DNA of 64,000 nucleotides. It comes from Gillisia lutea. Lineage in GTDB: Bacteria > Bacteroidota > Bacteroidia > Flavobacteriales > Flavobacteriaceae. The notes below the pieces were generated by a model. The model made no database searches. It saw nothing but the letters and a program-made list of their open reading frames with translations, and had not been told where the DNA came from. Position numbers and translations under genes: made by a program. The stretch covers positions 186,001-250,000 of the forward strand of contig NZ_JAKGTH010000011.1 in the NCBI RefSeq assembly GCF_021568705.1, in the 5' to 3' direction. How positions within the stretch are numbered: position 1 is the stretch's first letter; the number at the start of each line of letters is the position of its first letter. This document shows, piece by piece, positions 7,078-25,851 of the stretch.

Positions 7078-8328
7078 ATGCTAGGAGCCTTATTCTTTAT
7101 TATTGTTTTATTTTTTATTAATCAAGGAATTTTTAACTCTTTTCAGAATAAGCATAAGTTCTTTTCTAAAAAAGTAATGAATATTTTGTTTCTATATCAT
7201 TTCTTTTTTTGGATGGTATATTATCTATATGCTTTTTTCAACCCATCTGACTCTCGAGCATATTATGATAGACCGCAGAATCCTTTTTTAAGTTGGTTTG
7301 ACTTTTTAGGTACTAGTACTACATTTATAGATTTTCTTTCCTGGCCGTTTATTAATATTCTAAATTTCAATTATGAAATGATGATGGTGTTTTATGCTTG
7401 GTTAGGCTATCTTGGATTTTTATACGCTTATCTTTTTTTTCGAGAAAATATTCCGATTAAGATTAAGGTCTTTAAAAGAGTTGATCTCTTAATGTTAATT
7501 TTATTCTTTCCTAATATGCATTTTTGGACGGCTTCTTTAGGAAAAGGAGCCCCTATTTTTTTAGGGTTAATGATGTTTGCTTATGCGATTAATAGCCCGA
7601 AGTCCCGTATTTATTTACTTATTTTATCATCTTTATTAATATATTATATAAGACCACATGTATTTCTATTTGTTGCAGTAGGAACTGTTTTAGGTTATAT
7701 GAGCGGTAAAGAAAAAATATCATTTAGTAAGAAATTATTGATATACATAGTTCTAGTAGGAGGTCTTTATTTCGCACAAGATCAAATTTTAGGTATAGTT
7801 GGACTGGAAGGGGGAGATGATCTCGTGGAAGGCTTCGAAGATTTTTCAGACGACAGATCGCAATCTCTTAGTAAATCAGGTTCCGGTGTGGATATGTCTT
7901 CCTATCCTTTACCTTTGAAGCTATTTACCTTTTGGTTTAGACCATTATTTTTTGATGCACCCGGTATATTGGGATTAATTACCTCAGTAGAGAATCTTTT
8001 GTATCTACTTTTATTTATTAAAATTCTGAAGAGAGATTTTATAACCTTTATTAAGAATTCTAAGGTGGTAGTGAAAATGAGCTTAGTGGTGTTTTTACTT
8101 TCCTCATTTGCTATGACCTTCATTATGTCTAACCTTGGAATTATTATGCGACAAAAATCAATGGTTATGTACTTTTTGTTTTTTGTTATTTACTACTATT
8201 TAGCTCAAAAGAAATACGATAAAATTATTAAAATGAAAAAAAATAAAAATTCAATCAACAATAATAATCAAAAACAATCTGAGTTGAATTTAAGTACTAT
8301 AAGAAACACGACAATTCATTCCATTTAG
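7078..8328 (+). CDS. Multi-pass membrane protein of a glycan locus, possible polymerase (copy 1)
   Basis: 416 residues with roughly ten hydrophobic segments and no soluble enzymatic domain. It is clearly homologous to the protein at 9535-10752: both keep a SDS-containing loop after FFN, FWTASLGKG, YIRPHVFL, FWFRPLFFDAPGILG and SNLGII.RQKSMVMYF. Conserved charged residues in otherwise hydrophobic protein (SLGKG lysine, two RP pairs) are what one expects of a membrane glycosyl polymerase that binds diphospholipid substrates. I recognise the general type from polysaccharide loci but know no established function, so Wzy-like is only a hypothesis. An Asn/Lys-rich tail (about residues 382-400) is absent from the paralog. 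The gene starts one base after the GNAT gene. Confidence 0.6.
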   Translation: MLGALFFIIVLFFINQGIFNSFQNKHKFFSKKVMNILFLYHFFFWMVYYLYAFFNPSDSRAYYDRPQNPFLSWFDFLGTSTTFIDFLSWPFINILNFNYEMMMVFYAWLGYLGFLYAYLFFRENIPIKIKVFKRVDLLMLILFFPNMHFWTASLGKGAPIFLGLMMFAYAINSPKSRIYLLILSSLLIYYIRPHVFLFVAVGTVLGYMSGKEKISFSKKLLIYIVLVGGLYFAQDQILGIVGLEGGDDLVEGFEDFSDDRSQSLSKSGSGVDMSSYPLPLKLFTFWFRPLFFDAPGILGLITSVENLLYLLLFIKILKRDFITFIKNSKVVVKMSLVVFLLSSFAMTFIMSNLGIIMRQKSMVMYFLFFVIYYYLAQKKYDKIIKMKKNKNSINNNNQKQSELNLSTIRNTTIHSI

Positions 8329-9534: not shown

Positions 9535-10752
9535 ATGCAATTAGAAACCGGACTCGTATTAGATATAATTGGCGCTATATTCATGCTGCCCTTTCTTTAT
9601 TTGGTGACTCAATTTATATTCAAAAGCTTACAAAAAAAACATTCTTTTTTTAATAGAACCCTTATGAATAGGTTGTTTATTTATCATATGGGGTTTGGAA
9701 TGGTGTATTATATTTATGCCTTTTTCAATGCATCTGATTCCCATAAATACTTTATTTGGCCACAGAATATCCATAAAGGTTGGCTTGATTTTTTCGGAAC
9801 AGAAACTACGTTTGTAAATTTTATTTCATATCCTTTTATCAATGGACTCGGGTTTAGCTATGAGATGATGATGCTATTATTCACCTGGTTTGGATTTTTA
9901 GGTTTCGTGTATGCGTATTTATTTTTTAAAGAGAATATATCTTTAGAAGTTAAAGTGTTTAAACATATAGATCTACTTACTTTAATACTCTTTTTACCGA
10001 ACATGCACTTTTGGACGGCTTCTCTAGGAAAAGGATCAATCATTTTTCTTGGTCTGATGCTTTTTGCTTACTCTATCAAAAAGCCTAAAGTTAGAGTGGT
10101 GGGTTTATTAATAGGTGCTCTTCTCGTTTTTTATATAAGACCTCATGTTTTTCTCTTATTAACTGTTGGTGGCTTAGGTGGATTCTTCTTAGGTAAGGAT
10201 GCCATTTCATGGAAGAAGAAATTAATAATAGGGTTAAGTATGTTATTAGGCCTGTTTCTTATTCATGAAAAAATTTTGGCAGTAGTTCATCTTAATAATT
10301 CTAAAGATCTAATATCCGATTTTATAGCTTTCACAGCGCAAAGATCTCAAGATCTTAATACAGCAAGCTCTGGTGTTAATATGGCCGGGTACTCACTGCC
10401 AGAAAAATTCTTTACATTCTGGTTCCGTCCTTTATTTTTTGATGCTCCGGGTATACTAGGTATAATAGTGTCTTTAGAGAATTTTATTTACTTGCTGCTA
10501 TTTTTGAAAATATTGAAATTAGATTTCCTGAAGTTTTTAAAGAATGCACCGGTTAATGTGAGAATGAGTTTAGTGCTGTTTATGCTTACATCTTTTGCCA
10601 TGACTTTTGTTATGTCTAATCTTGGGATAATTATTAGACAGAAGTCTATGGTCATGTACTTCTTGTTTTTTGTAATCTATTATTATCTTGCTCATCAGAA
10701 AGGTCTCATTTCGCAAATTAAAGACAAAGAACTATCTTTGACTGCTGCGTAA
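9535..10752 (+). CDS. Multi-pass membrane protein of a glycan locus, possible polymerase (copy 2)
   Basis: 405 residues, about ten hydrophobic segments, homologous along its whole length to the protein at 7078-8328. Shared blocks include FWTASLGKG, YIRPHVFL, FWFRPLFFDAPGILG and a near-identical C-terminal segment ending FFVIYYYLA. At the DNA level the region 10004-10035 is almost the same as 7517-7548. It follows a terminator and a 170-base AT-rich leader, so it probably begins a new transcription unit that continues into the NeuB-like gene 22 bases downstream. Having two such proteins in one locus may mean two polymerisation activities, or a relict of recombination. No function is established. 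Confidence 0.6.
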   Translation: MQLETGLVLDIIGAIFMLPFLYLVTQFIFKSLQKKHSFFNRTLMNRLFIYHMGFGMVYYIYAFFNASDSHKYFIWPQNIHKGWLDFFGTETTFVNFISYPFINGLGFSYEMMMLLFTWFGFLGFVYAYLFFKENISLEVKVFKHIDLLTLILFLPNMHFWTASLGKGSIIFLGLMLFAYSIKKPKVRVVGLLIGALLVFYIRPHVFLLLTVGGLGGFFLGKDAISWKKKLIIGLSMLLGLFLIHEKILAVVHLNNSKDLISDFIAFTAQRSQDLNTASSGVNMAGYSLPEKFFTFWFRPLFFDAPGILGIIVSLENFIYLLLFLKILKLDFLKFLKNAPVNVRMSLVLFMLTSFAMTFVMSNLGIIIRQKSMVMYFLFFVIYYYLAHQKGLISQIKDKELSLTAA

Positions 10753-10774: not shown

Positions 10775-11818
10775 ATGAATCAAACTACTTATCTAATTGG
10801 GGAAATTGGTCAGAATCATAATGGATCGCCCGAATTAGCTAAATTAATTGTTGATGTAGCCGCCAGGTCTATAATAGACCCTCTCTTTCAGCATAAATTG
10901 AAAGGGATGGATGCTGTTAAACTTACCAAGAGGGATTTAAACTATGAGTTATCGGTTACTTCGGCAAATCGTATTTATAATTCACCACATTCGTTTGGAC
11001 ATACTTATGGGGAACATAGGGCTGCTTTAGAGCTTAGTGATATTGAACATTATGAGATTTATCTTTACGCTAAAGAGAAAGGTCTTGATTTCATTGAGAC
11101 ACTTTGCGCCCCTTCATGCTTGTCGGTATTAAAACATTTTACACCAGACAAATTAAAGATAGCCTCTCGAGATCTTACTAACATTCCCCTTTTAAGTGCA
11201 TTAGCTGAAACTGGTCTTCCTATTATTTTGTCTACAGGAATGGCAGGAAAGGAGGAATTGGATAACGCTTTAAATGAAATAAATAGGTATCACAATGATA
11301 TTTCCATTTTGCATTGCGTATCAGAGTATCCTACTAACCCCTTAAATGTTAATTTAAATACTATCCTCTATTTAAAAGAAAACTACCCTCAATATACTGT
11401 TGGATATTCCGATCATACCATTGGAATAGCTACGCCGTTAGCTGCTGTATCCATGGGAGCAAATATTATTGAGAAACATCTTACCCTAGATAGAAAAATG
11501 AAAGGAACAGACCAAGCCGGATCTTTAGGAATAGATGGAGCTCAACGGATGGTAAGAGATATACGATTATTAGAATTATCTTTTGGTAAGAAAGATCTTT
11601 TTATAGATCCCTCAGTGGAATTAGGAAAGATTAAATTGGAGCGATCTTTAGCTACTAATAAAATATTGTTGGCTGGGTCGATAATTAAAGACGAAGATTT
11701 GCATTTATTATCGCCTGGAGACGGCTTTAAATATACAGAAAAGTCAAAAATTATAGGAAAAAAGTTAGTGATTGATATAGTAGCTAATGAAATTATTTAT
11801 TCTAATTACTTGGAGTAA
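10775..11818 (+). CDS. NeuB-family nonulosonate synthase-like protein
   Basis: 347 residues. NeuB enzymes condense phosphoenolpyruvate with an N-acetylated hexose to give sialic-acid-like sugars. The TIM-barrel signatures are present: IGQNHNGS (11-18), KIAS (128-131), STGMA (153-157), GYSDHTIG (210-217), EKHLTLDR (233-240), and a C-terminal SAF/antifreeze-like domain from about 289 to 347. Several core blocks depart from typical NeuB: an extra segment at about 31-43, VKLTKRD where VKFQ is usual, a PHSFGHTYGEHR insertion at 71-82, TLCAPSC (109-115) in place of STPFD, and an Arg at 132 after KIAS where Gly is usual. It is therefore a synthase-like enzyme with probably unusual substrate. Neighbouring phosphatase and cytidylyltransferase genes support the ulosonate role. 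Confidence 0.8.
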   Translation: MNQTTYLIGEIGQNHNGSPELAKLIVDVAARSIIDPLFQHKLKGMDAVKLTKRDLNYELSVTSANRIYNSPHSFGHTYGEHRAALELSDIEHYEIYLYAKEKGLDFIETLCAPSCLSVLKHFTPDKLKIASRDLTNIPLLSALAETGLPIILSTGMAGKEELDNALNEINRYHNDISILHCVSEYPTNPLNVNLNTILYLKENYPQYTVGYSDHTIGIATPLAAVSMGANIIEKHLTLDRKMKGTDQAGSLGIDGAQRMVRDIRLLELSFGKKDLFIDPSVELGKIKLERSLATNKILLAGSIIKDEDLHLLSPGDGFKYTEKSKIIGKKLVIDIVANEIIYSNYLE

Positions 11819-11849
11819 ACGGTATTTGTAATTATAGCATTAAAAACCT

Positions 11850-12359
11850 ATGAGAATTAAGTTATTGGTTTCTGATATAGATGGGGTATGGACTGATGGT
11901 TCTTTCTATTATAGTGAAAAGGGAGATGCGCTTCGCAAATTTTCTACCAAGGATAGTTTTGGTGTAAGTCTTGCTAATATCATGGATTTACCCATCTTGA
12001 TACTTTCTGGAGAACAAAATGAAATGGTTATTTCCCGACTTAAAAAATTGAATATAACAAATTATCAGCTAGGTGTTAAAAACAAACTTAATGCCCTTCT
12101 TGATTTTTGTACTTTATATGCCATCTCTCTTTCTGAAGTAGCTTATATAGGAGATGATATGAATGATCATGCCCTATTGAATAAGGTAGGTTTGTTTGTG
12201 TGTCCTGTAGATGCAAATTTAAGGATTAAACAGAACGCTCATGTAACTCTGGAAAAAAAGGGAGGAGAAGGTGCTTTCCGTGAGTTTGTGGAATACGTTT
12301 TGGAAAAGGAAGGGGTATTAGAAGTTGCTTATGACAGGTATATAAAAATAAATGACTGA
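11850..12359 (+). CDS. KdsC-like HAD phosphatase
   Basis: 169 residues, the usual size of 3-deoxy-manno-octulosonate-8-phosphate phosphatases and the related acylneuraminate-9-phosphatases. The HAD nucleophile motif is SDIDGVWTDG with D9 and D11, Ser53 in LSGEQ is motif II, and GDDMND (101-106) is the Mg2+-binding motif. The family forms tetramers without a cap domain. It lies 31 bases after the NeuB-like gene and overlaps the next gene by eight bases. It probably dephosphorylates the condensation product before CMP activation. A role in Kdo synthesis for lipid A is possible but less likely in this context. Confidence 0.85.
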   Translation: MRIKLLVSDIDGVWTDGSFYYSEKGDALRKFSTKDSFGVSLANIMDLPILILSGEQNEMVISRLKKLNITNYQLGVKNKLNALLDFCTLYAISLSEVAYIGDDMNDHALLNKVGLFVCPVDANLRIKQNAHVTLEKKGGEGAFREFVEYVLEKEGVLEVAYDRYIKIND

Positions 12360-13068
12360 TATTAAAACAGCTGTAATAATTCAAGCTCGAATGTCAAGCA
12401 CTCGTTTACCGGGTAAAAGTCTTCAATTAATAGGTGAAAAACCTCTCATATATTATGTAATTCAAAGGTTAAAATCACTGAATATACCTATAATTATATG
12501 TACCAGTACTCATGATAGTGATAATGATTTAGTTGAGTATTTACAAGCTCAAGAAATTTTGGTATATCGAGGATCTCTCTTTAATGTTTTAGAAAGATAT
12601 ATCTCCGCAGCTGAATATTATAATATTAAGAATATCATTAGAATTACAGGAGATAATCCTTTAGTCGACATTAAAGCTTTAGAAATGGCTCTCCCAATGT
12701 TAAAGGATTATTCTTATATAGATGCTATTTACCCGAATGGCTGGATTAAAGGTACTGGTTTTGAACTTGTGAAATTATCAGAATTGAAAAATATCAATTC
12801 CCATGAACCTTTGCATAAGGAACATGTAACTTTAGCTTTACGAGAGGATATTTCGAAAAAGCCATACTATAAAAAATTAGCCATTCCTTCTTATCAAAGA
12901 TCTTATAATAATATTGTATTGACTTGTGATTATCCTCAAGATTTACAAACCTTACAATATGTTTTTGAACATTTTAATTATAATACAAACATAAGAATCG
13001 AGGAAATTATTGATTTGTTTAGAAGGCATCCAGCACCTTTTCTTAAAAATCTGCATTATCATCAATAA
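12352..13068 (+). CDS. SpsF-like cytidylyltransferase-family protein
   Basis: 238 residues. The N-terminal motif IIQARMSSTRLPGK (about residues 9-22) is the nucleotide-binding signature of the SpsF/CMP-ulosonate synthetase group, and TGDNPLVD around residue 99 is the metal-binding region. B. subtilis SpsE (NeuB family) and SpsF are encoded side by side in spore-coat polysaccharide synthesis, and the same pairing occurs here. It could activate the ulosonate made upstream, in which case it would be one of two cytidylyltransferases in the locus (the other is at 18878-19558). The gene overlaps the phosphatase gene by eight bases. Confidence 0.75.
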   Translation: MTDIKTAVIIQARMSSTRLPGKSLQLIGEKPLIYYVIQRLKSLNIPIIICTSTHDSDNDLVEYLQAQEILVYRGSLFNVLERYISAAEYYNIKNIIRITGDNPLVDIKALEMALPMLKDYSYIDAIYPNGWIKGTGFELVKLSELKNINSHEPLHKEHVTLALREDISKKPYYKKLAIPSYQRSYNNIVLTCDYPQDLQTLQYVFEHFNYNTNIRIEEIIDLFRRHPAPFLKNLHYHQ

Positions 13069-13140
13069 ATCCGCAAACCCCGTTAATCTCTCTTTTATAA
13101 CAATAATATTAGTAGTTTTGGGTAATTCTATAAAACTTGT

Positions 13141-14937
13141 ATGAATTATAAAGATTTTTTGAAAAAATACTTTCACTTCTTTACATACTTCCATAACTAT
13201 TTAGGTTATAGGATTTTCATAGCATTGATCAGTAGCGTATTAGTTGGTATTCTGGATGGAGTTGGTTTAGCATTGTTTATACCTTTAATAAGAATGATAA
13301 CTGGTTCCCCAATGGGTGCATCATTAAGTGGTAAGGAAAATTTTATCAGTGAATTGGTATTAGATACTTTTAACATTACCCCTAATTTATTAAATGTATT
13401 TATGCTGATATTTATATTCTTTTGTTTTAAAGGAATAGCTAAATTCTTCGAGTCTTATTTAAGAGTGGTATTTCAGCAAGTTTTTATGAGAAAAGTACGT
13501 CTTGCAAATATAGATTTACTAAATAGTTATGATTTTCAGAAATTCCTTAAGTCAGACGCAGGTAGAATTCAAAATACTCTTAGCGGAGAGATAAATAGGC
13601 TAAACTCAGCTTACATTCATTATTTTAAATCTTTTCAATTAGGAGTCCTAGTTCTTACCTATATTATATTTGCCTTAGGAGTAGACTGGAAATTTACATT
13701 ATTAACAGTCTTTGGAGGTGTAGCTGTAAACTTCATCTTTAAATATCTCTATAAACGAACAGTTTACTTTTCTAGGATGTTCACCTTAAAAACCCATTTC
13801 TTTCAAAATTTATTGGTTCAAAAAGTATATCTATTTAAATATTTAAAAGCCACAGGATTAAATGCCGTATATGGAGAAAAACTGAAAAGTAGTATTCATG
13901 ATATGGAAGGCATACAGAAAAAAGTAGGATTAGTGGATGCTTTATTAGGAGCATTACGGGAGCCATTGAGTATAGTAATCGTATTTTTAGCAGTATTTTT
14001 AAATATTCAGTTTTTTGATGAAAGTTTAGCAAATGTAATGTTGAGTTTGCTATTACTATATAGGGCTATTACATTCTTTATGACCATGCAGGAACAATGG
14101 AATAGTTTTCTGGGTGTTTCGGGAAGCTTGGAAAATATGCGTGATTTTACCAAAGAATTGGAAAGGGGAAAAGAAAAAAACGGTAAAATTATATTTGATA
14201 CGTTTAAGGAAAAATTAGTGTTTAAGGATGTAACATTTAGCTTTACTTCAAAAAAGAATATTTTAAGTCATATAAGTTTTACAGTTCATAAAAATGAAAC
14301 TCTTGCTATAGTTGGGGAAAGTGGGGCAGGTAAATCTACAATGCTCAATGTTCTTTCCGGGTTACTCCTTCCTACTTCCGGGATGTATTACGTAGACAAC
14401 ATTCCTATTCATGAGTTTGAAGCTCAAAGTTTTAAAAAGCGTATTGGGTATATAGTGCAGGATGCCACAATTTTTAATGATACAATATATAATAATATAA
14501 GTTTTTGGGCACCAAAAACCCCTGAGAATTATAAGCGATTCTTGTATGCAATTAAAAAATCTGCTATCGATGATTTTATTTTGAACTTGCCTAATAAGGA
14601 GGACACCTTGTTAGGTAGTAATGGTATTAATATTAGCGGCGGGCAAAAGCAAAGGCTTTCTATAGCAAGGGAGTTATTTAAAGAAGTAGATTTTTTACTG
14701 TTGGATGAAGCAACCTCCGCTTTAGATACTGAAACCGAAGCTATAATACGAAATAATATTTATAAACTTAAAGGTGAGTACACTATAATTATAATAGCGC
14801 ATAGACTAGCAACTATAAAAAATGCCGATCGAATAATATTAATGGATAAGGGGGTGATTAGTGCAATTGGTTCATTCGAAGAATTATTGCAATGCTCATC
14901 CAAATTCAGAAAAATGGTGAGTATTCAAAACTTGTAA
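13141..14937 (+). CDS. ABC half-transporter with fused permease and ATPase, probable glycolipid flippase
   Basis: 598 residues: an N-terminal permease domain with about six membrane segments (roughly residues 20-320) and a C-terminal ATPase. Walker A is GESGAGKST (about 393-401), the signature is ISGGQKQR (about 498-505), Walker B is LLLDEA (about 520) and the H-loop is AHRLAT. This is the MsbA/PglK layout; it would work as a homodimer moving a lipid-linked substrate across the inner membrane. With PglC-F-like genes in the same locus and no Wzx-type flippase visible, a PglK-like role for the lipid-linked oligosaccharide is a reasonable inference. Its 72-base upstream gap has no terminator. 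Confidence 0.8.
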   Translation: MNYKDFLKKYFHFFTYFHNYLGYRIFIALISSVLVGILDGVGLALFIPLIRMITGSPMGASLSGKENFISELVLDTFNITPNLLNVFMLIFIFFCFKGIAKFFESYLRVVFQQVFMRKVRLANIDLLNSYDFQKFLKSDAGRIQNTLSGEINRLNSAYIHYFKSFQLGVLVLTYIIFALGVDWKFTLLTVFGGVAVNFIFKYLYKRTVYFSRMFTLKTHFFQNLLVQKVYLFKYLKATGLNAVYGEKLKSSIHDMEGIQKKVGLVDALLGALREPLSIVIVFLAVFLNIQFFDESLANVMLSLLLLYRAITFFMTMQEQWNSFLGVSGSLENMRDFTKELERGKEKNGKIIFDTFKEKLVFKDVTFSFTSKKNILSHISFTVHKNETLAIVGESGAGKSTMLNVLSGLLLPTSGMYYVDNIPIHEFEAQSFKKRIGYIVQDATIFNDTIYNNISFWAPKTPENYKRFLYAIKKSAIDDFILNLPNKEDTLLGSNGINISGGQKQRLSIARELFKEVDFLLLDEATSALDTETEAIIRNNIYKLKGEYTIIIIAHRLATIKNADRIILMDKGVISAIGSFEELLQCSSKFRKMVSIQNL

Positions 14938-14955
14938 TTCCATTAAACAATTTTC

Positions 14956-16419
14956 ATGAAGATATTTATAGCGTCCATATATAATATTGATAGTTATTCT
15001 CGCGGAATAATGCCCGATGTTTTGCAAGACAGCATTAACAAATATTCTAATGCAACTATTTATTACTTAAGTTGTTACAATTCGTTTGATGTTTGTTACT
15101 TTAATCCTGATAAAAAACCTGATATCTGTTATAGGTGTAAAACTGGCGCTAAAAATACTTTAAGATTGGTTAATGGAGAATTTACAGATCTAAGTATTAA
15201 TGATATAGTTACGAATGAAGACAAAAATACAGCCATTAACTTTTACAGAGATAAAAGTAGGGTAAGTTTTAATGATGTTTATGACGAGTTTGAAGTTGGG
15301 GCATCTACGTTATCCACCTATATTTCTATAACTCGTGACCGAGATTTATTTAATGCTGACGCATCCTTTGTTAAAGAACTGGCCATTAACGCTTTAAGTT
15401 TATACTTGGGTTTATATCGTTTTTTTAAAAGTAATGAAATTGATGTAGTCTATAACTTTAACGCTAGGCAAGAATATGTTAGAGCTGTTTTAAATGCCTC
15501 CTTAAAAGCAAATATTGATTGTTATAATGTAGAGCGGGCGAGAATGGGAGGTTTTATTGAGACTTATAAAAATGTTTTACCTCATAATATATCAACAAAA
15601 TGGAAACTTGTTCAAGATTGTTGGAGTGAGAGCCGCTTAAGTGTAAAGGAGAAAGAAATAATTGGATCGAGTTTTTATGATAGACAGGGAAAGGGGGAAA
15701 GTATAATTTTCCAATCGTACACCTCCAATATGGAAAAGGGAAGCTTGCCACCGTATATTTTAGGTAATAAAAAAAACCTAGTGCTTTTTAATAGTTCAGA
15801 TGATGAGTTTGCAGCAATGGGTGAAGAATTTCAGAACCCATTTTTTAAAAATCAGAATGAAGGTCTAGATTATTTGGTTCATTTGGTGGGCTCGAAATTA
15901 CAGGGATATAATCTTATAATTAGGATGCATCCCAATTTATCTGGGGTTACTCATAAATTTGTTGAACAAATAAAAGAATTGCATCAACTGTATCCAAATA
16001 TTTATGTAGTTCCTCCAGAAAGCAAAATAGATACATATGCATTAATGGATACTGCAGATAAGGTTATCAGTTTTGGATCGACCACTGGCTTGGAGGCCAA
16101 TTATAGAAATATACCTGTAATTTTATTAGGTAAAAGTTTTTATTTCTATGCAAACGTGGCCTATATTCCCACTAAGAAGGAAGACCTAGAGGACTTACTT
16201 TCACAAGATCTTCAGTTAAAACCAAGAATAGATGCGTTAAAATTTGGTTTTTATTACTTACGAGGGGGGAGTAAGACACAATATTACTTTGAAGATAATA
16301 AAGGAAAAGGAGTGTTTTTTAAAACTAAAAGAATTCATTTTTTTACTTTAAAACAGCGAATTAAGAATCAGTTCATTAAATTAATGTATCAATTTTTTAA
16401 GATGCGCATTAGACTATAA
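14956..16419 (+). CDS. Capsule-synthesis-type GT-B protein
   Basis: 487 residues of no precisely named family. The C-terminal half carries IIRMHPNLSG (about 321-330) and ISFGSTTGLEANY...PVILLG (about 371-391). This His-containing and SxxGxE(A/x) pattern is typical of the capsule synthesis and CDP-glycerol transferase GT-B group. The N-terminal third has a CYRCKTGAKN stretch with paired Cys, of unknown meaning. It probably transfers a sugar or a glycerol-phosphate-like group to the glycan; the donor could be a CMP- or CDP-linked compound. It begins 18 bases after the ABC gene and ends three bases before the GT2 gene, inside a very compact block reaching to 22055. Confidence 0.65.
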   Translation: MKIFIASIYNIDSYSRGIMPDVLQDSINKYSNATIYYLSCYNSFDVCYFNPDKKPDICYRCKTGAKNTLRLVNGEFTDLSINDIVTNEDKNTAINFYRDKSRVSFNDVYDEFEVGASTLSTYISITRDRDLFNADASFVKELAINALSLYLGLYRFFKSNEIDVVYNFNARQEYVRAVLNASLKANIDCYNVERARMGGFIETYKNVLPHNISTKWKLVQDCWSESRLSVKEKEIIGSSFYDRQGKGESIIFQSYTSNMEKGSLPPYILGNKKNLVLFNSSDDEFAAMGEEFQNPFFKNQNEGLDYLVHLVGSKLQGYNLIIRMHPNLSGVTHKFVEQIKELHQLYPNIYVVPPESKIDTYALMDTADKVISFGSTTGLEANYRNIPVILLGKSFYFYANVAYIPTKKEDLEDLLSQDLQLKPRIDALKFGFYYLRGGSKTQYYFEDNKGKGVFFKTKRIHFFTLKQRIKNQFIKLMYQFFKMRIRL

Positions 16420-16422
16420 TGT

Positions 16423-17346
16423 ATGTTAAAAACTAGATTTGCTGCTTTTGTAATGACATTTGAACGACCCGATGTTCTTGTTGAGACAATTAAAAAAATT
16501 CAATCTCAAAGTTTTCCTCCAGCAGTAGTTTTAATAGTAGATAATAGTAACAATTACACTACACAGGAACGTTTACAGAAAGAAAATTTAATCGGTATAG
16601 AGTACTTAAGAGTAGGATATAATAGTGGCCCGGCAGGAGCAGCTTACTTAGCGTTAAAGCATTTAACCAACCTCGGATTCGAATGGATATATTGGGGAGA
16701 CGATGATAATCCACCTAGAGATACAACAGTTTTTGCAAATTTAATGGGTGCAATGGAGAAGCTAACTTCTCAAGGGATAAAGCTCGGTCTCTTAGGGGAA
16801 AAGGGTGGGAAATTTAATAGTTTTTCGGGTCGGATTAAATCACTTTCAAATTTTGAATTGAAACAAGGGGAATATTTAGAAGTTGATTCTATACCGGGAG
16901 GACATAGTATGATTGTGAATACCGAAGTTATTAAAAATAAAATTTTTCCTAATTCTGATCTTTTTTTTGGTTTCGAAGAGTTTGACTTTTGTTTGAACAT
17001 AAAAAAATCTTCTTTTAAGTTAATGATCACGACTGCACCTTGGCTTAAGGTAAGAGAGGAAAATAATCTTAGCAATAAAGAATATAGATGGAGGGGAAAT
17101 TCTTTTGGTAAATCCGATCAGTTACAACGAGAATATTACAGCACAAGAAATTTACTTGATATTTTTTATAAACATCATTATTATATACCTTTTGTAATTC
17201 TTTTAATCAAAAGTTTTGGGAAAATGCTTTTAGGCTTCAAATATGGAACACATTATGGTAGAAACATGTTTTTAATTCAGTCTCATGCAATAACTGATTT
17301 TTTTAAGGGTAATTTTGGCATGAAAAAGCATATTAATAGACTTTAA
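16423..17346 (+). CDS. Family 2 glycosyltransferase (GT-A fold)
   Basis: 307 residues. The opening FVMTFERPDVLVETIKKI is the nucleotide-binding strand-helix of GT2, VDNS follows, and the metal-binding site is GDDDNP (about 93-98), a version of the DXD motif seen in GlfT-like and rhamnosyltransferase-like GT2 enzymes. GFEEFDFC about 95 residues later fits the catalytic ED-type motif. The C-terminal part contains a hydrophobic stretch (FVILLIKSFGKMLLGF) that may attach it to the membrane. The start is three bases after the preceding stop, and its own stop directly abuts the aldolase ATG. Donor unknown. Confidence 0.8.
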   Translation: MLKTRFAAFVMTFERPDVLVETIKKIQSQSFPPAVVLIVDNSNNYTTQERLQKENLIGIEYLRVGYNSGPAGAAYLALKHLTNLGFEWIYWGDDDNPPRDTTVFANLMGAMEKLTSQGIKLGLLGEKGGKFNSFSGRIKSLSNFELKQGEYLEVDSIPGGHSMIVNTEVIKNKIFPNSDLFFGFEEFDFCLNIKKSSFKLMITTAPWLKVREENNLSNKEYRWRGNSFGKSDQLQREYYSTRNLLDIFYKHHYYIPFVILLIKSFGKMLLGFKYGTHYGRNMFLIQSHAITDFFKGNFGMKKHINRL

Positions 17347-18876
17347 ATGAAAGATAAGGATCAAAATAGATTAATGATTTTGGATTGTACTCTTAGGGAT
17401 GGTGGGTACTATACGAATTGGGATTTTAAACAGGAAATTGTTGATACATATTTTGCAACCCTTAATAATTTGCCTATTGATTATATAGAAATTGGTTATC
17501 GTTCCTTACCCTCAAAAAAATATGCTGGAGCTTATTATTATTTGCCCGAATTCTTATTAAAGGAATGTAGAGGAAAATCCTCTAAAAAATTAGCTATTAT
17601 TCTAAATGAAAAAGAAATTTCATCTAGGGATGTAGCAAATTTACTTCAACCATGCGTTGGAATTATTGATTTAGTGCGTATAGCAGTTGATCCCAAAAAC
17701 TTTAATAGAGCAGTACATTTGGCAAAGACCATTAAGGATTTAGGATTTAAAACTGCTTTCAATTTAATGTATGCAAGTAATTGGAAGAATTTATTTGAAA
17801 TTGATGCAGATATTGAGATTCTAAACGAGGTGGTCGATTATTTTTATGTAGTAGATTCTTTTGGAGGGATGTTGCCCGAAGAAGTAGAAACTTTATTTAT
17901 AAAGCTTCAGCAGTATTTAATAATACCTCTTGGATTTCATGGACATAATAACTTAGAATTGGCTTTCGCTAATACCTTGGCTTCAATTTCTGCTGGAGCC
18001 AGTATAGTAGATGCAACAGTATTTGGCATGGGGAGGGGAGCTGGTAATTTAAAAATGGAACTGTTATTAACCATTCTACATAAAAAATATGAATATAATA
18101 TTAATTTCGATGAGTTGCATCATCTTAGTAATTTGTTTATAAAATTGAATAACACCTATAATTGGGGAAGCAATCTTCCATATATGATTTCCGGGGCGCA
18201 TTCATTAGCACAAAATAATGTAAACTCTCAGGTGAAAAAACGGTTCTTTTCATTAAATGATATAGTTCCAAAAACTAATCAAAATTTGGATGTATTTAAT
18301 CCATTACCTTATATTAACAAGGTGGATGTTCCTTCTATAAGTAAAATAATTCTTGTAGGTGGTGGAGGGAGTACACAAAGTCATAAAAAGGTACTGCAGC
18401 AATTCATCCAGGGAGATAAAGACATGGGGGTTGTCTATGTGAGTTCTAGAAATGTAAATATATTTCAGCACTTTTCGAATCCGCAGTTTCATTGTTTGCC
18501 AGGAAGAGAGGTTGGGCGATTGCACAGTATTTTTAATAGCCAATTAGAGAATAGATTTTTTATTATACCTCATTTAAACTTAATAAATAAATCGTATCCT
18601 AATAAGTTTATTTCACGTACTCAAGTTTTGGAGAGTGTAACTAATGAAATATCTGCAACAGAAATGGCTTTTAAATTGATTAACATGATGAACCCTTTAG
18701 AGGTTTATATCACCGGTTACGATGGTTATGGTGCAAGGGCTAATAGTTTACAAAGAGAACTTTTTGAAGAAAATCAACTTCTTTTTAACAAAGAGCTCAA
18801 AATGGGGAGAAATTTAAAAATGATTACCCCCAGTGAGTATGATGTACCGGTTGAATCTATTTACCAATTATTATAG
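17347..18876 (+). CDS. DRE-TIM aldolase fused to a C-terminal nucleotide-binding-like domain
   Basis: 509 residues in two parts. Residues about 8-300 are an HMG-CoA lyase-type TIM barrel: LDCTLRDGG (12-20) gives the catalytic Arg and metal-binding Asp, and GFHGHNN (197-202) gives the two His ligands. Such aldolases cleave or join pyruvate units with aldehydes, as 4-hydroxy-2-oxovalerate aldolase does. Residues about 331-509 form a second domain with a glycine-rich loop (ILVGGGGSTQ, 335-344) and a late TGYDGYG motif, resembling the MptE/DUF115-like fold found in some flagellin-glycosylation proteins. The combination in a sialic-acid-like cluster suggests formation or elongation of a ketosugar acid, but no reaction is established. 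The start follows the GT2 stop with no gap. Confidence 0.7.
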   Translation: MKDKDQNRLMILDCTLRDGGYYTNWDFKQEIVDTYFATLNNLPIDYIEIGYRSLPSKKYAGAYYYLPEFLLKECRGKSSKKLAIILNEKEISSRDVANLLQPCVGIIDLVRIAVDPKNFNRAVHLAKTIKDLGFKTAFNLMYASNWKNLFEIDADIEILNEVVDYFYVVDSFGGMLPEEVETLFIKLQQYLIIPLGFHGHNNLELAFANTLASISAGASIVDATVFGMGRGAGNLKMELLLTILHKKYEYNINFDELHHLSNLFIKLNNTYNWGSNLPYMISGAHSLAQNNVNSQVKKRFFSLNDIVPKTNQNLDVFNPLPYINKVDVPSISKIILVGGGGSTQSHKKVLQQFIQGDKDMGVVYVSSRNVNIFQHFSNPQFHCLPGREVGRLHSIFNSQLENRFFIIPHLNLINKSYPNKFISRTQVLESVTNEISATEMAFKLINMMNPLEVYITGYDGYGARANSLQRELFEENQLLFNKELKMGRNLKMITPSEYDVPVESIYQLL

Positions 18877-18877
18877 A

Positions 18878-19558
18878 ATGTCTGTATCTGTTTTTATACC
18901 TGTAAGAAAAGGAAGCGAAAGAGTAAAACGAAAGAATACCCGAATCTTTGCTGGTATAAAAGGAGGTTTACTATATATTAAACTAAAACAATTGGAGTCA
19001 ATAAAAGGTGTAGATGAAATTATAGTCTCGACCAACGATGAAGAATGTCTAAGTATAGCTCAGAATTTTACCTCATCCATACCAATTCTTAAGGTAATTG
19101 AAAGGCCTACTGAATTGGGATCATCCAAAACCTTGTTAACCGATCTTATATCCTATGTTCCCACATTAACTAGTTCCGACTATATTTTATGGACTCATGT
19201 TACTTCCCCCTTCTGCAATACTTTACACTATGAAAATGCGATAACAATTTTTGAAAATAAACTTAGGGAAGGATATGACTCGTTAATAACAGGACGAAAT
19301 TATAGTGACTTTTTACTGAATCCAGCATCAAACAAAATAATAAATAATAGAACCGATCTTGAATGGCCTAGAACACAAGATCTTATGGAATTATTTGAGA
19401 TTAATAATGCCATTTTTGTAGCTCATCGTAAAGCATACCTTAAATCCAACAGGGTTGGTATTAAACCATATTTAATGACAATGGATAAAATAACATCTTT
19501 AGATATAGATGATATGAGTGATTTTAAAATGGCAGAGATTCTTTATGGTAAACTTTAA
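18878..19558 (+). CDS. NeuA-like CMP-acylneuraminate cytidylyltransferase family protein
   Basis: 226 residues. FIPVRKGSERVKRKNTRIFAG at the N-terminus (read as two blocks, IPVRKGSERVK and RKNTR) is the CTP-binding signature of NeuA/KdsB-type enzymes, and IERPTELG plus WTHVTSPF are the later family motifs. The ATG at 18878 is chosen because it sits one base after the aldolase stop and directly precedes the conserved region; an in-frame ATG at 18833 would overlap the aldolase by 44 bases. It is a better NeuA match than the SpsF-like protein upstream, so it is the likeliest enzyme to make the CMP-sugar used by the GT29-like protein. Confidence 0.8.
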   Translation: MSVSVFIPVRKGSERVKRKNTRIFAGIKGGLLYIKLKQLESIKGVDEIIVSTNDEECLSIAQNFTSSIPILKVIERPTELGSSKTLLTDLISYVPTLTSSDYILWTHVTSPFCNTLHYENAITIFENKLREGYDSLITGRNYSDFLLNPASNKIINNRTDLEWPRTQDLMELFEINNAIFVAHRKAYLKSNRVGIKPYLMTMDKITSLDIDDMSDFKMAEILYGKL

Positions 19559-20177
19559 AAATAAGACGGTAATACTATGGGATTTTGATGGAGTAATTTT
19601 AGACTCTATGGAGGTTCGAACTAAAGGCTTTAAAACAGTACTTGGCTCTTTTCCGGAGAAAAAAGTTCAGGAACTTGTTAACTTTCATTTAAAGAATGGA
19701 GGGTTGTCGCGATATGTTAAATTTAAATATTTTTTCGAACAGATTATTAAAGTCCCTGTAAATTCTAATGATGTTGAAAAATATTCAAATATGTTTTCGG
19801 AAATCATGCTTGAAATTTTGCCTAATAAAAAGCTTTTAATACCAGATTCACTAAATTTTATAATTGATAATCAGGAAAAATTTGAAATGCATATCGTTTC
19901 AGGGTCGGATGAAAATGAACTGAAGAAATTGTGTTATGCATTAGATATAACTAATTTATTTAAATCCATTCAGGGCTCTCCGGTGCCTAAAACAGATCTT
20001 GTAAGTGAAATCTTGGCTAGAGAGCACTATTATAACTCCTCGGTAGTTTTAATTGGTGATAGTATTAATGACCATGATGCAGCCATCCAGAATAGCATAG
20101 ATTTTTTGGGTTACAATAACACCTTACTTTTGAAAAAAGGCCTGCCATACATAAAATCCTTTAATGAAATTGTTTAG
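19545..20177 (+). CDS. HAD-superfamily phosphatase
   Basis: 210 residues, phosphoglycolate phosphatase-like subfamily. WDFDGVILDS (about 10-19) is HAD motif I with both catalytic Asp, VSGS near residue 119 is motif II, and IGDSINDHDAA (about 169-179) is motif IV. Residues between motifs I and II form the helical cap. The ATG at 19545 overlaps the preceding gene by 14 bases and lies just before motif I; a GTG further upstream is less likely. It is the second phosphatase of the ulosonate cassette and may act on a phosphorylated ulosonate or precursor, as NANP does for sialic acid. Substrate not determined. Confidence 0.8.
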   Translation: MVNFKNKTVILWDFDGVILDSMEVRTKGFKTVLGSFPEKKVQELVNFHLKNGGLSRYVKFKYFFEQIIKVPVNSNDVEKYSNMFSEIMLEILPNKKLLIPDSLNFIIDNQEKFEMHIVSGSDENELKKLCYALDITNLFKSIQGSPVPKTDLVSEILAREHYYNSSVVLIGDSINDHDAAIQNSIDFLGYNNTLLLKKGLPYIKSFNEIV

Positions 20178-20901
20178 AAGTATAAGTGCATTGTTCATAA
20201 TGATGGTTTCCTTAAGAAGGTTTAATCCAAAGAAACAATTTAGAAACAAGCGCGTGGCTATTATTGGAGCAGCAAGTTCAATACTGCAAGAAGAAAAAGG
20301 TGATTATATTGATAATTTTGATATAGTTATTAGAATTAACAAGGCCGGTTGTACTAACTATAAAATTCACAAATTATTCTCAGGTGAGAAATGTACCCAT
20401 CTTTTTCATAGTTTCTATGAAAATGAATTTAGTGGAGGCGGACCGTTAGAATGGGACCATCTTAATGCCTTAGGTATAAAAAAGGTGATTAATCCCAATA
20501 ATAGTATTAAAGGTTTAATTACACATTTGAATTTTTATAAAAGACATTTAAAATTTTATAGAACCTATATATTAAAAGCTAGAGCCTATTCCGAGATAAA
20601 TGAACATTTAGAAGGATGGATACCAACTGTCGGATTTTCTGCAATCATATCAGCTTTAAAATCTCCCTGCAGGGAAATTTATCTAACGGGTTTTACCTTT
20701 TTTAAAAGTAGCTATATTGATAATTATAGAGATGATTTAGTTGATATGGATAAGAATGAAGCACATATTAAAAAACAAGGTCTTCATAATCCTGATCTGG
20801 AATTTGAAATATTTAAAAAAGAAGTTTATAGTTCTACCTGTAAAAAAGTTACACTTGATAAAGAACTACAGCGTTTACTAGCTGTAAATTCAACACTATG
20901 A
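20164..20901 (+). CDS. GT29 sialyltransferase-like protein
   Basis: 245 residues. GT29 is the animal-type sialyltransferase family, and its three sialylmotifs can be read here. The L motif is at 31-62: VAIIGAASSI, then IDNFDIVIRINKAG. The S motif is at about 152-178: WIPTVGFSAIISAL followed by CREIYLTGF. The VS motif HxxxxE is H208 to E213. The bacterial form lacks a membrane anchor and is shorter than animal enzymes; a short hydrophobic N-terminus (SALFIMMVSL) could give peripheral attachment. It would transfer a sialic-acid-like residue from its CMP donor to the glycan. It overlaps the HAD gene by 14 bases and the next GT4 gene by four. Family placement is by motif reading, not by alignment. 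Confidence 0.75.
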   Translation: MKLFRSISALFIMMVSLRRFNPKKQFRNKRVAIIGAASSILQEEKGDYIDNFDIVIRINKAGCTNYKIHKLFSGEKCTHLFHSFYENEFSGGGPLEWDHLNALGIKKVINPNNSIKGLITHLNFYKRHLKFYRTYILKARAYSEINEHLEGWIPTVGFSAIISALKSPCREIYLTGFTFFKSSYIDNYRDDLVDMDKNEAHIKKQGLHNPDLEFEIFKKEVYSSTCKKVTLDKELQRLLAVNSTL

Positions 20902-23438: not shown

Positions 23439-24050
23439 TTGAAAGTATATAGGGAAATATTTAAACCGGTTATAGATTTTATAGTTTCGTTTACGGCATT
23501 ATTAATTCTATCACCGTTATTACTTGTTTTTACAATTCTTTTAGCTTTGGCAAATAAAGGAAATCCTTTTTTTCGTCAAATCAGACCTGGGAAAAACGCC
23601 CGTCTATTTAAAATTGTAAAATTTAAAACAATGACTGATGAAAAGGATGAAAACGGAAATCTTCTTCCCGATTCCCATCGGTTAACTAAAATTGGAGCTC
23701 TGGTTAGAAAGACTTCTGTAGATGAAATTCCACAGTTGTGGAATGTTTTAATGGGGGATATGAGTTTAATTGGTCCAAGACCTTTACTTCCAGAATACCT
23801 TTCTTTATATAATAAAGACCAGGATAAACGCCATTTGGTAAAACCCGGAATAACCGGTTGGGCTCAGGTAAATGGTAGGAATGCTATTAGCTGGAAACAG
23901 AAATTTGAATATGATGTATGGTATGTTGAGCATTTGTCACTCTTGTTAGATTTAAAAATTATATTCAGAACTATTAAGAAAGTGCTAATTTCAGAAGGTA
24001 TAAATGCATCTAACATGGCTACTACTGAGGCTTTTAATGGAAATAATTAA
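23439..24050 (+). CDS. pglC: PglC-like polyprenyl-phosphate phosphosugar transferase
   Basis: 203 residues, the monotopic PglC size class. One hydrophobic re-entrant helix lies at about 10-35. FKTM and DE(I)PQLWNVL with IGPRP about 15 residues later are the catalytic and binding motifs of the bacterial sugar transferase family, and the C-terminal part has KPGITGWAQVNGR. It would move a phospho-amino-sugar, probably diNAcBac-1-P, onto undecaprenyl phosphate and so start glycan assembly. The start must be the TTG at 23439: the frame has a stop at 23427-23429 and no ATG before the conserved region. Three PglD/E/F-like genes follow, which strengthens the substrate guess. Confidence 0.85.
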   Translation: MKVYREIFKPVIDFIVSFTALLILSPLLLVFTILLALANKGNPFFRQIRPGKNARLFKIVKFKTMTDEKDENGNLLPDSHRLTKIGALVRKTSVDEIPQLWNVLMGDMSLIGPRPLLPEYLSLYNKDQDKRHLVKPGITGWAQVNGRNAISWKQKFEYDVWYVEHLSLLLDLKIIFRTIKKVLISEGINASNMATTEAFNGNN

Positions 24051-24052
24051 AT

Positions 24053-24652
24053 ATGAACATTTACGGAGCAAGTGGGCACTCAAAGGTTATCATTGATATT
24101 GCAAAGTCAAATAATATCCTAATAGAAAACATTATAGATGACGATTTATCTGTAAATGAAATATTAGGCTATTCTGTTAAACATAAGGTTGATGAAGAGC
24201 TGTTAGCTTCTAAGACAATTTTAGGAATAGGGAATAATAGTATACGTAAAAGGGTTTCAGAATTATTTAAAGGCGCGATCCATCAAGCTATTTTTCACCA
24301 CAGTGCAGTAGTGTCCCCTTTCGCTATAATTGATTGTGGCACGGTTATTATGCCTAATGCCTCCATAAATGCAAATGCAGAAATAGGAAAACATTGCATT
24401 ATTAATACCGGAGCTATTGTGGAACATGATTGTGTTCTCGAAGATTTTGTGCATATCTCCCCCAATTCATCATTGGCAGGGGGTGTTAAGATTGGTGAGG
24501 GAACCCACGTGGGAATAGGAGCATCCGTAATTCAGGGCATTTCAATTGGCAAATGGGTTACAATAGGTGCGGGTGCTGTAATCATTAAAGATATTCCTGA
24601 TAATGCTGTAGTCGTAGGCAATCCGGGTAGAATTATAAAATACATAGAATAA
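24053..24652 (+). CDS. pglD: PglD/NeuD-like sugar O/N-acetyltransferase
   Basis: 199 residues. The N-terminal third is a small Rossmann domain that begins YGASGHSKVIIDIA, which binds the UDP-sugar in PglD. The rest is a left-handed beta helix made of hexapeptide repeats (for example IGEGTHVGIGASVI). EHDC near residue 123 places the catalytic His-acid pair seen in PglD. The expected reaction is acetylation of UDP-4-amino-sugar to UDP-diNAcBac. It begins two bases after the PglC-like stop and three bases before the aminotransferase gene. Confidence 0.85.
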   Translation: MNIYGASGHSKVIIDIAKSNNILIENIIDDDLSVNEILGYSVKHKVDEELLASKTILGIGNNSIRKRVSELFKGAIHQAIFHHSAVVSPFAIIDCGTVIMPNASINANAEIGKHCIINTGAIVEHDCVLEDFVHISPNSSLAGGVKIGEGTHVGIGASVIQGISIGKWVTIGAGAVIIKDIPDNAVVVGNPGRIIKYIE

Positions 24653-24655
24653 GAT

Positions 24656-25834
24656 ATGGAAAAGAGCAAGATATGGCTCTCTTCCCCCCATATGGGAGGA
24701 ACTGAACGGAATTATGTTAAGGAAGCATTTGATGGAAATTGGATTGCTCCTTTAGGGCCAAATGTTATTGGTTTCGAAAAAGCACTCGAAGATTATCTTT
24801 TTACCGGAATTGAAAAGTCTGATTATGGCGCTAGCAACAAAGGAGGAGTAGCCGCTTTGAGTTCCGGAACTGCGGCACTGCACTTAGCTCTAATTATATT
24901 AGGAGTTAAGCCCGGCGATGAGGTATTGTGTCAAACCATGACATTTGCTGCTTCTGCTAATCCAATCGCCTATTTAGGGGCAGTCCCAATTTTTGTAGAT
25001 AGTGAAAAAGATACTTTAAACCTTTGTCCAATTCATCTGGAAGAGGCAATAAAGGATAGGATCAAAAAAGGTAAAAAGCCAAAAGCTATTATTGGAGTGC
25101 ATTTATATGGCATGCCATACAAAATCAAAGAGATTAATAAAATTTCTAAGAAATATGATATTCCTGTTATCGAGGATAGTGCTGAAGCTTTAGGAAGCAC
25201 ATATAAAGGGCAGAAGTGCGGTACATTTGGTGATTTCGGAATTCTTTCTTTTAATGGGAATAAAATTATTACTACCTCAGGAGGTGGTGCGTTAGTTACC
25301 AGAAATGATGAGTTTAAGAATAAAGCAGTGTTTCTGGCAACACAAGCAAGGGATAATGCCCCACATTATCAGCATAGTGAAATTGGTTACAACTATCGTT
25401 TAAGTAATATTAGTGCTGGTATTGGGAGAGGACAAATGGAAGTTTTGGATAAGCACGTTCAGCTTAGGCGGGACATGCATGATTTCTACGTGGAAATTTT
25501 TAAAGAAGTTCCGGGAGTACATGTTTATTTAGAGCCTAATGAAGATTATTTCTGTAATAATTGGTTGAGTGTGATTTCGATAGATCCTGTTGAAGCTGGG
25601 GGGCTTACACGTGAGGATTTACGATCATGTTTAGAGTCTGAAAACATTGAAAGCCGTCCGTTATGGAAACCCATGCATTTACAACCAGTATTTAAAAATG
25701 TTCCATTCTATGGGGCCGGAATAGCCGAAATGCTATTTGAACAAGGCTTATGCCTTCCTTCAGGATCTAATCTAACTAAGGAAGATAGAGAGAGAATAGC
25801 GAATGCTATTAAAAAATGCTTTAAATTTAGTTAA
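24656..25834 (+). CDS. pglE: PglE-like sugar aminotransferase (DegT/DnrJ/EryC1 family)
   Basis: 392-residue PLP enzyme. Fold motifs are SSGTAALHLAL (69-79), EDSAEALGS (173-181) and the PLP-binding Lys203 in SFNGNKIITTSGGG. It would transfer an amino group from glutamate to the 4-keto group of the dehydratase product, the step before PglD. Size and motif order match PglE and related enzymes. Together with its neighbours this gives the complete three-step UDP-diNAcBac route (F, E, D) in reverse gene order. Confidence 0.9.
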   Translation: MEKSKIWLSSPHMGGTERNYVKEAFDGNWIAPLGPNVIGFEKALEDYLFTGIEKSDYGASNKGGVAALSSGTAALHLALIILGVKPGDEVLCQTMTFAASANPIAYLGAVPIFVDSEKDTLNLCPIHLEEAIKDRIKKGKKPKAIIGVHLYGMPYKIKEINKISKKYDIPVIEDSAEALGSTYKGQKCGTFGDFGILSFNGNKIITTSGGGALVTRNDEFKNKAVFLATQARDNAPHYQHSEIGYNYRLSNISAGIGRGQMEVLDKHVQLRRDMHDFYVEIFKEVPGVHVYLEPNEDYFCNNWLSVISIDPVEAGGLTREDLRSCLESENIESRPLWKPMHLQPVFKNVPFYGAGIAEMLFEQGLCLPSGSNLTKEDRERIANAIKKCFKFS

Positions 25835-25851
25835 TTAATTTTCCGCAAGTA

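Follow-up and report, generated by a model that had tools for sequence, protein, structure and literature searches.

The subject of this analysis is a block of ten genes at positions 10775-20901 of a 64,000-nucleotide stretch of Gillisia lutea DNA (contig NZ_JAKGTH010000011.1, positions 186,001 to 250,000), which is called the window here. That the block encodes two separate ulosonate modules is well supported. Module 1 (10775-13068) is composed of a NeuB-family synthase, a KdsC-like phosphatase and an SpsF-like cytidylyltransferase. Module 2 (17347-20901) is composed of an aldolase-type fusion protein, a NeuA-like cytidylyltransferase, a HAD phosphatase and a GT29 transferase. The genes, their families, the predicted folds, the recurrence and the modularity were established directly. 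We slightly favour the explanation that the block encodes two pathways to ulosonates activated with cytidine monophosphate (CMP), in which module 1 would make 2-keto-3-deoxynononic acid (Kdn) and module 2 a second 3-deoxy-2-ulosonic acid.

Every substrate, reaction direction and product in the following scheme is a prediction, for both modules. The NeuB-family enzyme would convert mannose-6-phosphate (Man-6-P) and phosphoenolpyruvate (PEP) to Kdn-9-phosphate (Kdn-9-P), the KdsC-like enzyme would release Kdn, and the SpsF-like enzyme would form CMP-Kdn from Kdn and cytidine triphosphate. In module 2, the HMGL-type domain of the fusion would perform a pyruvate aldol addition to a phosphorylated aldehyde sugar. 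The resulting ulosonate would be dephosphorylated by the HAD enzyme and made into a CMP sugar by the NeuA-like enzyme, and GT29 would transfer it.

Separation and exchange of the modules

The loci were chosen by the fusion protein alone, and 88 were inspected, namely the window, 7 fetched earlier and the best 80 of 559 from a scan of genome contigs (L and C numbers are our handles for loci and contigs). The order fusion-NeuA-HAD-GT29 was found without NeuB in the fetched flanks of Salegentibacter (L060), Pontibacter (L063) and Roseivirga pacifica (L070). Salegentibacter holothuriorum, which can be cultured, carries the aldolase module, and its fetched 21.5 kb showed no NeuB. In Chitinophaga (L064) and Ohtaekwangia (L069), the order from the ABC exporter to the PF05159 protein, fusion, NeuA, HAD and GT29 is kept, and NeuB and NeuC genes precede the aldolase block at the place of module 1 in the window. 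The upstream cassette of Ohtaekwangia also holds part of a LegB-like gene. Because the modules occur apart and the NeuB cassette is swapped in these two genomes, the block is read as two pathways rather than one.

The initial annotation had proposed either one new ulosonate or two different ones, and the latter part is borne out by these loci. Its two activation enzymes and two phosphatases are also explained, because one of each belongs to each module. A single new nonulosonate pathway using all of the genes was rejected and is very improbable. Roseivirga thermotolerans (L080) would suit it, as both modules stand side by side there within about 8 kb. However, each module occurs without the other in other genomes, and the cassette paired with the aldolase block in Chitinophaga and Ohtaekwangia is of the NeuB/NeuC type, not module 1.

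The two candidate transferases differ in their distribution. PF05159 homologues (478 and 459 bits) lie directly before the fusion in Chitinophaga and Ohtaekwangia. Of the 88 loci, none besides these and the window had this protein labelled, and a NeuB cassette lies upstream in all three. GT29 is present in all six loci, the window included, and the PF05159 homologue in three. Therefore, GT29 more likely serves module 2, small as these numbers are.

The aldolase module and its predicted product

Near-full-length relatives of the fusion at E 1e-112 or better were found at 10 places in 9 of 395 genomes of the phylum, its own included, and a weaker relative (28% identity) in a tenth genome of the 395. 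The best 80 loci of the contig scan came from Bacteroidota, Proteobacteria, Prochlorococcus, Omnitrophica, Bacillota and others. Neighbours were counted on either strand in 73 long fusion loci, window included, defined by an open reading frame (ORF) over 480 aa and a phmmer score over 150 bits. The 73 leave out four loci in which no aldolase ORF was called (L098, L100, L102, L112) and the eleven with an ORF under 480 aa (L094, L110, L116, L118, L119, L127, L133, L135-L137, L139). They keep the near-copies L121/L123 and L128/L129 and the two copies of one genome, L048/L049. Outside the 88 stand L045 (the same place as L061), L050 (the same as L080) and the weaker relatives L012 and L053-L057. 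Residue alignments comprised 61 sequences; for the remotest of the 73, homology in the C-terminal part was not confirmed individually.

A cytidylyltransferase-family gene lies at +1 to +4 of the fusion in 64 of the 73 loci, the module HAD in 40 and both in 39. Counted per gene, cytidylyltransferases make up 66/280 at +1 to +4 and 13/507 at -8 to -1, and the module HAD 40/280 and 0/507, respectively. The window HAD has eight partners that are 44-50% identical to it. GT29 occupies place +3 in 6/73 loci, window included, and several other loci have a gene similar to the ABC exporter close to the fusion. NeuB is found at -8 to +10 in 11/73; a twelfth locus, Chitinophaga, has it just beyond that range. 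In 10/73 loci (L046:11460-12176, L066:11565-12284, L115:9293-10114 and seven others), the module genes downstream of the fusion include one of the HpcH/HpaI type, which is a pyruvate aldolase class; Pfam confirmed all three that were scanned. These genes support aldol chemistry in the module, not which protein performs it.

In distant bacteria, the module is also joined by an LdpA-like iron-sulfur protein (L115:7553-8563, L121:11698-12714, L123:3676-4692; Pfam run on L115) and by a protein of 604-609 aa, whose L115 copy has no Pfam match. PfkB-family sugar kinases near the fusion (L088:12240-13268, L126:5624-6667) are a possible source of sugar phosphate. A tblastn search of plasmids gave 9 records, none spanning 80% of the fusion. 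Public plasmid records name the family 'aldolase catalytic domain-containing protein', 'hypothetical protein' or '4-hydroxy-2-oxovalerate aldolase'.

The fusion has 509 aa, with an HMGL-type domain at about 1-310 and a Maf/MptE/sialyltransferase-like domain at about 322-509. The full-length model reached a predicted local distance difference test score (pLDDT) of 91. The closest solved relative of the HMGL-type domain is PDB 3dxi (E 4.5e-101; 48% identity in the fold search), the N-terminal domain of BVU_2661 of Bacteroides vulgatus. It belongs to the same family and was deposited merely as a putative aldolase. Among the matches listed, all open-licence papers containing the BVU_2661 string were unrelated, and no role for 3dxi was found in them. 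In Foldseek, 4-hydroxy-2-oxovalerate aldolases (DmpG type), which make or cleave pyruvate aldols, occupied ranks 2-12 straight after 3dxi (TMt 0.72-0.77), ahead of acyl-CoA condensing synthases. Arg17, Asp18, His198 and His200 are invariant in the 61 sequences and aligned with residues of these aldolases which we take to be the enolate arginine and the metal ligands. The fusion differs from the DmpG type in its Tyr21 and in the attached Maf-like domain. On TIGR03217, the 4-hydroxy-2-oxovalerate aldolase equivalog, it scored 95.1 bits, far under the cut-off of 286, and is thus a relative, not a member.

Several points weigh against an aldolase-based pathway. By sequence, citramalate synthase (E 3e-16) is the best functional match, ahead of the best 4-hydroxy-2-oxovalerate aldolase (E 2.9e-13). 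Tyr21, invariant in 61/61, stands where those aldolases have a histidine after RDG, presumably a catalytic one, so the chemistry may differ. Where a locus holds both the HMGL and the HpaI family, the aldol step could be assigned to either. The cytidylyltransferase is absent from +1 to +4 in 9/73 loci and this HAD in 33/73; some loci are cut off by the end of their contig, and HADs of other kinds, such as those of L115 and L134, are outside the count. The HMGL-type domain might accordingly be an acyl-CoA condensing synthase or another DRE-TIM lyase, with the activator and the HAD using an ulosonate from another enzyme. We regard this as unlikely, though it deserves consideration. The citramalate synthase match, the tyrosine, the separate HpcH/HpaI-type gene in 10 loci and the isopropylmalate and homocitrate synthases in the fold list speak for it. 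Against it are the Foldseek ranks 2-12, all 4-hydroxy-2-oxovalerate aldolases, and the 62/73 loci which have no NeuB at -8 to +10 and hence no such local ulosonate source (KdsA was not sought there).

The C-terminal domain (322-509) was modelled with pLDDT 93. Its best fit is the Maf glycosyltransferase 5mu5 (Z 13.5, root-mean-square deviation 3.1, 177 aligned), followed by SteA (Z 12.4), archaeal HPPK (8sd5, Z 11.2), thiamine pyrophosphokinases (Z 10.9) and the sialyltransferase Cst-II (1ro7, Z 9.6). PF01973 (MptE-like) matched weakly in 39/61 members, at E up to 0.5 (best 9.6e-7), and the window's own domain gave no Pfam match. The model thus suggests the fold of Maf flagellin glycosyltransferases, MptE/HPPK and GT42 sialyltransferases; a shared fold shows no function. 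Unlike in those proteins, the 188-aa domain is carried on an aldolase.

The activators indicate which kind of sugar the module would handle. The NeuA-like enzyme of the window matches the CMP-NeuAc synthetase PDB 1eyr (E 1e-9), and both window activators have a CTP_transf_3 domain above the gathering score. Beyond the window, 63 activators were compared with its NeuA-like enzyme: 25 resemble it closely (phmmer score of at least 100 bits), and 38 fall short of this. Of the latter, 31 were scanned, and 26 matched CMP-Kdo synthetase models and 5 PseF, where Kdo is 3-deoxy-D-manno-oct-2-ulosonic acid. The scan left out L114, L115, L123, L126, L128, L134 and L138. Sub-type labels (NeuA/SpsF/KdsB) from iterated profiles were intermixed and therefore dropped in favour of phmmer and model scans. 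Because enzymes of both the NeuA and KdsB families activate 3-deoxy-2-ulosonic acids, such an acid is the most likely predicted product of module 2, whichever activator is used.

That this product is ordinary Kdo or a Kdo isomer made by an alternative route seems rather unlikely. The 26 of 31 matches above fit it. So does a GT29-GT107 protein that one paper links to a putative poly-Kdo capsule of E. coli K6; GT29 is also placed there among the families transferring ulosonic acids from CMP donors (PMC13171606). On the other hand, the genome already has matches above the cut-off to KdsA (C11:8207, at a distance of about 180 kb), KdsC (C8:28779) and KdsD (kpsF, C9:281929), and its strongest CTP_transf_3 match (C8:15828) is presumably kdsB. 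The module 2 activator of the window also matches PseF better than the KdsB models. A second 3-deoxy-2-ulosonic acid is preferred for module 2.

The NeuB module and its probable Kdn route

The NeuB of module 1 scored 237.3 bits on the N-acetylneuraminate synthase equivalog, far under its cut-off of 399.65, and 189 bits on the pseudaminate synthase (PseI) model, whose cut-off is 340. By that equivalog cut-off it falls outside the N-acetylneuraminic acid (Neu5Ac) pathway, and it has no NeuC beside it. For the phosphatase, the best-scoring model was KDN-9-P phosphatase (177.4 bits, 177.1 in a second scan; cut-off 180) and the best PDB match was 3e81 (E 4.6e-39), which we take to be BT1713 of Bacteroides thetaiotaomicron. 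A mannose-6-phosphate isomerase family match is present in the genome.

The two enzymes are associated across the phylum. A NeuB that matches the module 1 enzyme at E 1e-60 or better is encoded in 12 of the 395 genomes, its own among them, and a KDN-9-P phosphatase above the model cut-off in 10. The six best of these ten phosphatases are in genomes with this NeuB subfamily (hypergeometric P 3.6e-8), and they adjoin the subfamily NeuB or stand one small ORF away. In the 11 other genomes with the subfamily, a KdsC-like gene is close to NeuB in 6 and an SpsF-like gene or fusion partner is present in 9; none lacks both. Relatives at 43-46% identity are SpsF-NeuB fusions. Such fusions, of about 600 aa, were seen at L159:7869-9614, L160:8847-10640 and L161:8247-10118, with a KDN-9-P phosphatase-type gene nearby in the first two and none seen in L161. 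In a tree of 22 rows, the module 1 NeuB lies within a nine-row clade of SpsF- and/or KdsC-linked NeuBs (support 100/100). A branch (96/92) separates the thirteen SpsF- or KdsC-linked rows, together with one unlabelled row, from both NeuC-linked rows.

Residues 56 and 67 of 3e81, presumably involved in Kdn recognition, align with Glu/Lys in the module 1 phosphatase, the same pair as in 3e81. Entries 4hgq and 4hgr have Ala there, and the second KdsC of the genome (C8) has Gly/Glu. Over 29 of 30 loci (L196 has no phosphatase match), Glu/Lys was found in all 14 phosphatases, that of the window among them, whose fetched stretch holds a NeuB.

Module 1 fits the published Kdn route, which requires neither NeuC nor LegG, and would be a new member of this known kind. 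One paper describes a Kdn-9-P synthase resembling BT1714, whose substrates are Man-6-P and PEP, along with the Kdn-9-P phosphatase of B. thetaiotaomicron (PMC6200933); Kdn formation from Man-6-P and PEP is also reported (PMC7845648). The likeness to the pathway of B. thetaiotaomicron (BT1713/BT1714) and Prymnesium parvum, as represented there, lies in a NeuB-family synthase, a HAD phosphatase and a CMP transferase with NeuC unnecessary. The differences are that the activator of module 1 is SpsF-like, the genes lie inside a polysaccharide locus and the activity here is a predicted one.

Some observations count against a Kdn assignment. The phosphatase is about 3 bits short of the curated cut-off. 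No KdsC-like neighbour was found in 5/11 other genomes of the NeuB subfamily (L155 has another HAD instead). Glu/Lys also occurs in 8/15 phosphatases without NeuB in the fetched stretch, so the separation is weak; the remaining 7/15 have Asp/Arg. The tree has some long branches, two of which meet, and its rows are without any NeuB of assayed Kdn activity.

Alternatively, module 1 could lead to Neu5Ac or a legionaminic-type acid, supplied by a NeuC elsewhere or by the genes downstream of the block. We give this little credence. The genome has two Epimerase_2 matches, on C7 and on C9. The latter is a NeuC of 407 bits (cut-off 235.9) in a NeuA-NeuB-NeuC set at 259.7-262.5 kb, and its finding answers the search for NeuC elsewhere that the initial annotation had proposed. 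LegC/PseC-like and PseB-like genes are also present at 24656-27828, 3-7 kb downstream of the cassette with an acetyltransferase gene (24053-27828 in all) and adjoining an initiating sugar transferase, so the statement that no PseB/PseC-like genes are near did not hold. We take these genes to resemble a bacillosamine-type set. In addition, an animal-type route uses N-acetylmannosamine-6-phosphate and a 9-phosphate phosphatase. Against this supply, however, the C9 NeuC sits with its own NeuA and NeuB (401.7 bits, cut-off 399.65), and the module 1 NeuB shares just 29% identity with this second NeuB and falls among SpsF- and/or phosphatase-linked ones. To our knowledge, the bacterial Neu or Leg (legionaminic acid) routes need no phosphatase. 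The C9 set and the Kds genes also mean that the block is not the sole CMP-ulosonate source of the genome.

The Kdn route remains preferred for module 1. The missing NeuC, taken at first as a sign of novelty, was rejected as such, since Kdn synthesis does not require it and the genome carries one on C9. The claimed lack of fit to the Neu, Leg and Pse (pseudaminic acid) pathways thus falls for module 1, which matches the known Kdn route. For module 2 it may hold, as no described pathway for the aldolase module was seen among the open-licence papers listed.

Locus layout and significance

The block is part of one long surface-polysaccharide locus. By the ORF list of the window, its ten genes are intact, run in one direction and are tightly packed, several of them overlapping (Table 1). 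The starts of the NeuA-like gene (18878) and the HAD gene (19545) were re-read from the sequence. All of the genes that the initial annotation had named are real, as ORFs and family matches agree; its list omitted the ABC exporter, the PF05159 protein and the GT2 enzyme between the modules. The GT29 match (PF00777, 55.7 bits) exceeds the gathering score of 23. The GC fraction is 0.30-0.34 across the block and 0.28-0.40 in the remainder of the window.

Table 1. Genes of the block and of its downstream flank (window positions).
Feature	Position	Strand	Match
NeuB-family synthase, predicted Kdn-9-P synthase, module 1	10775..11818	+	PF03102 E 7e-62
KdsC-like HAD phosphatase, predicted Kdn-9-P phosphatase, module 1	11850..12359	+	NF058599 177.4 bits (cut-off 180)
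SpsF-like cytidylyltransferase, predicted CMP-Kdn synthetase, module 1	12352..13068	+	PF02348 E 1.9e-26
ABC exporter, predicted flippase	13141..14937	+	HepA/PglK/MsbA-like, under those models' cut-offs
PF05159 capsule-type protein, candidate ulosonate transferase	14956..16419	+	PF05159 27.9 bits (cut-off 20)
GT2 glycosyltransferase	16423..17346	+	PF00535 E 5.5e-9
HMGL-type (DRE-TIM) aldolase domain + Maf/MptE/sialyltransferase-like domain, fusion, module 2	17347..18876	+	PF00682 E 1.4e-25
NeuA/PseF-like cytidylyltransferase, predicted CMP-ulosonate synthetase, module 2	18878..19558	+	PseF model 66.1 bits (cut-off 205.7)
HAD_2 phosphatase, predicted ulosonate-phosphate phosphatase, module 2	19545..20177	+	PF13419 E 2e-13
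GT29 (sialyltransferase family) transferase, more likely module 2	20164..20901	+	PF00777 E 6.5e-15
Initiating sugar transferase	23439-24050
NeuD/PglB-family acetyltransferase	24053-24652
LegC/PseC-like aminotransferase	24656-25834		below curated cut-off
PseB-like dehydratase	25852-27828		below curated cut-off

Upstream of the block lie glycosyltransferase-like genes (by reading only), a GNAT-type gene and a polysaccharide-deacetylase gene. Two proteins at 7078-8328 and 9535-10752 are alike by eye and apparently span the membrane several times; the second gave no NCBIfam match at 1e-10 and no Pfam match at 1e-5. Downstream are a further glycosyltransferase, the tabulated genes, a polysaccharide export protein and a Wzc-like kinase.

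The synthases behind the familiar CMP-ulosonic acids (Neu, Leg, Pse, Kdn, Kdo) depend on PEP. Module 2 recurs and is a candidate pathway that its first enzyme sets apart from these routes; an undescribed ulosonate from it is possible. Tentatively, and with a little less confidence than for the two pathways of the block, we propose a second CMP-ulosonate logic in several phyla. In it, a DRE-TIM pyruvate aldolase with a Maf/sialyltransferase-like domain would replace the PEP-dependent NeuB/KdsA synthase and would act with a dedicated HAD and an interchangeable NeuA-type or KdsB-type activator. The products may be undescribed or rare short-chain or isomeric 3-deoxy-2-ulosonic acids of surface glycans. 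Should the recurring aldolase-cytidylyltransferase-HAD module indeed use pyruvate to make an ulosonic acid, bacterial surface glycans contain acidic sugars that escape nonulosonate searches based on NeuB. A function would then also be assigned to a widespread fusion family whose solved domain (3dxi) had no role found.

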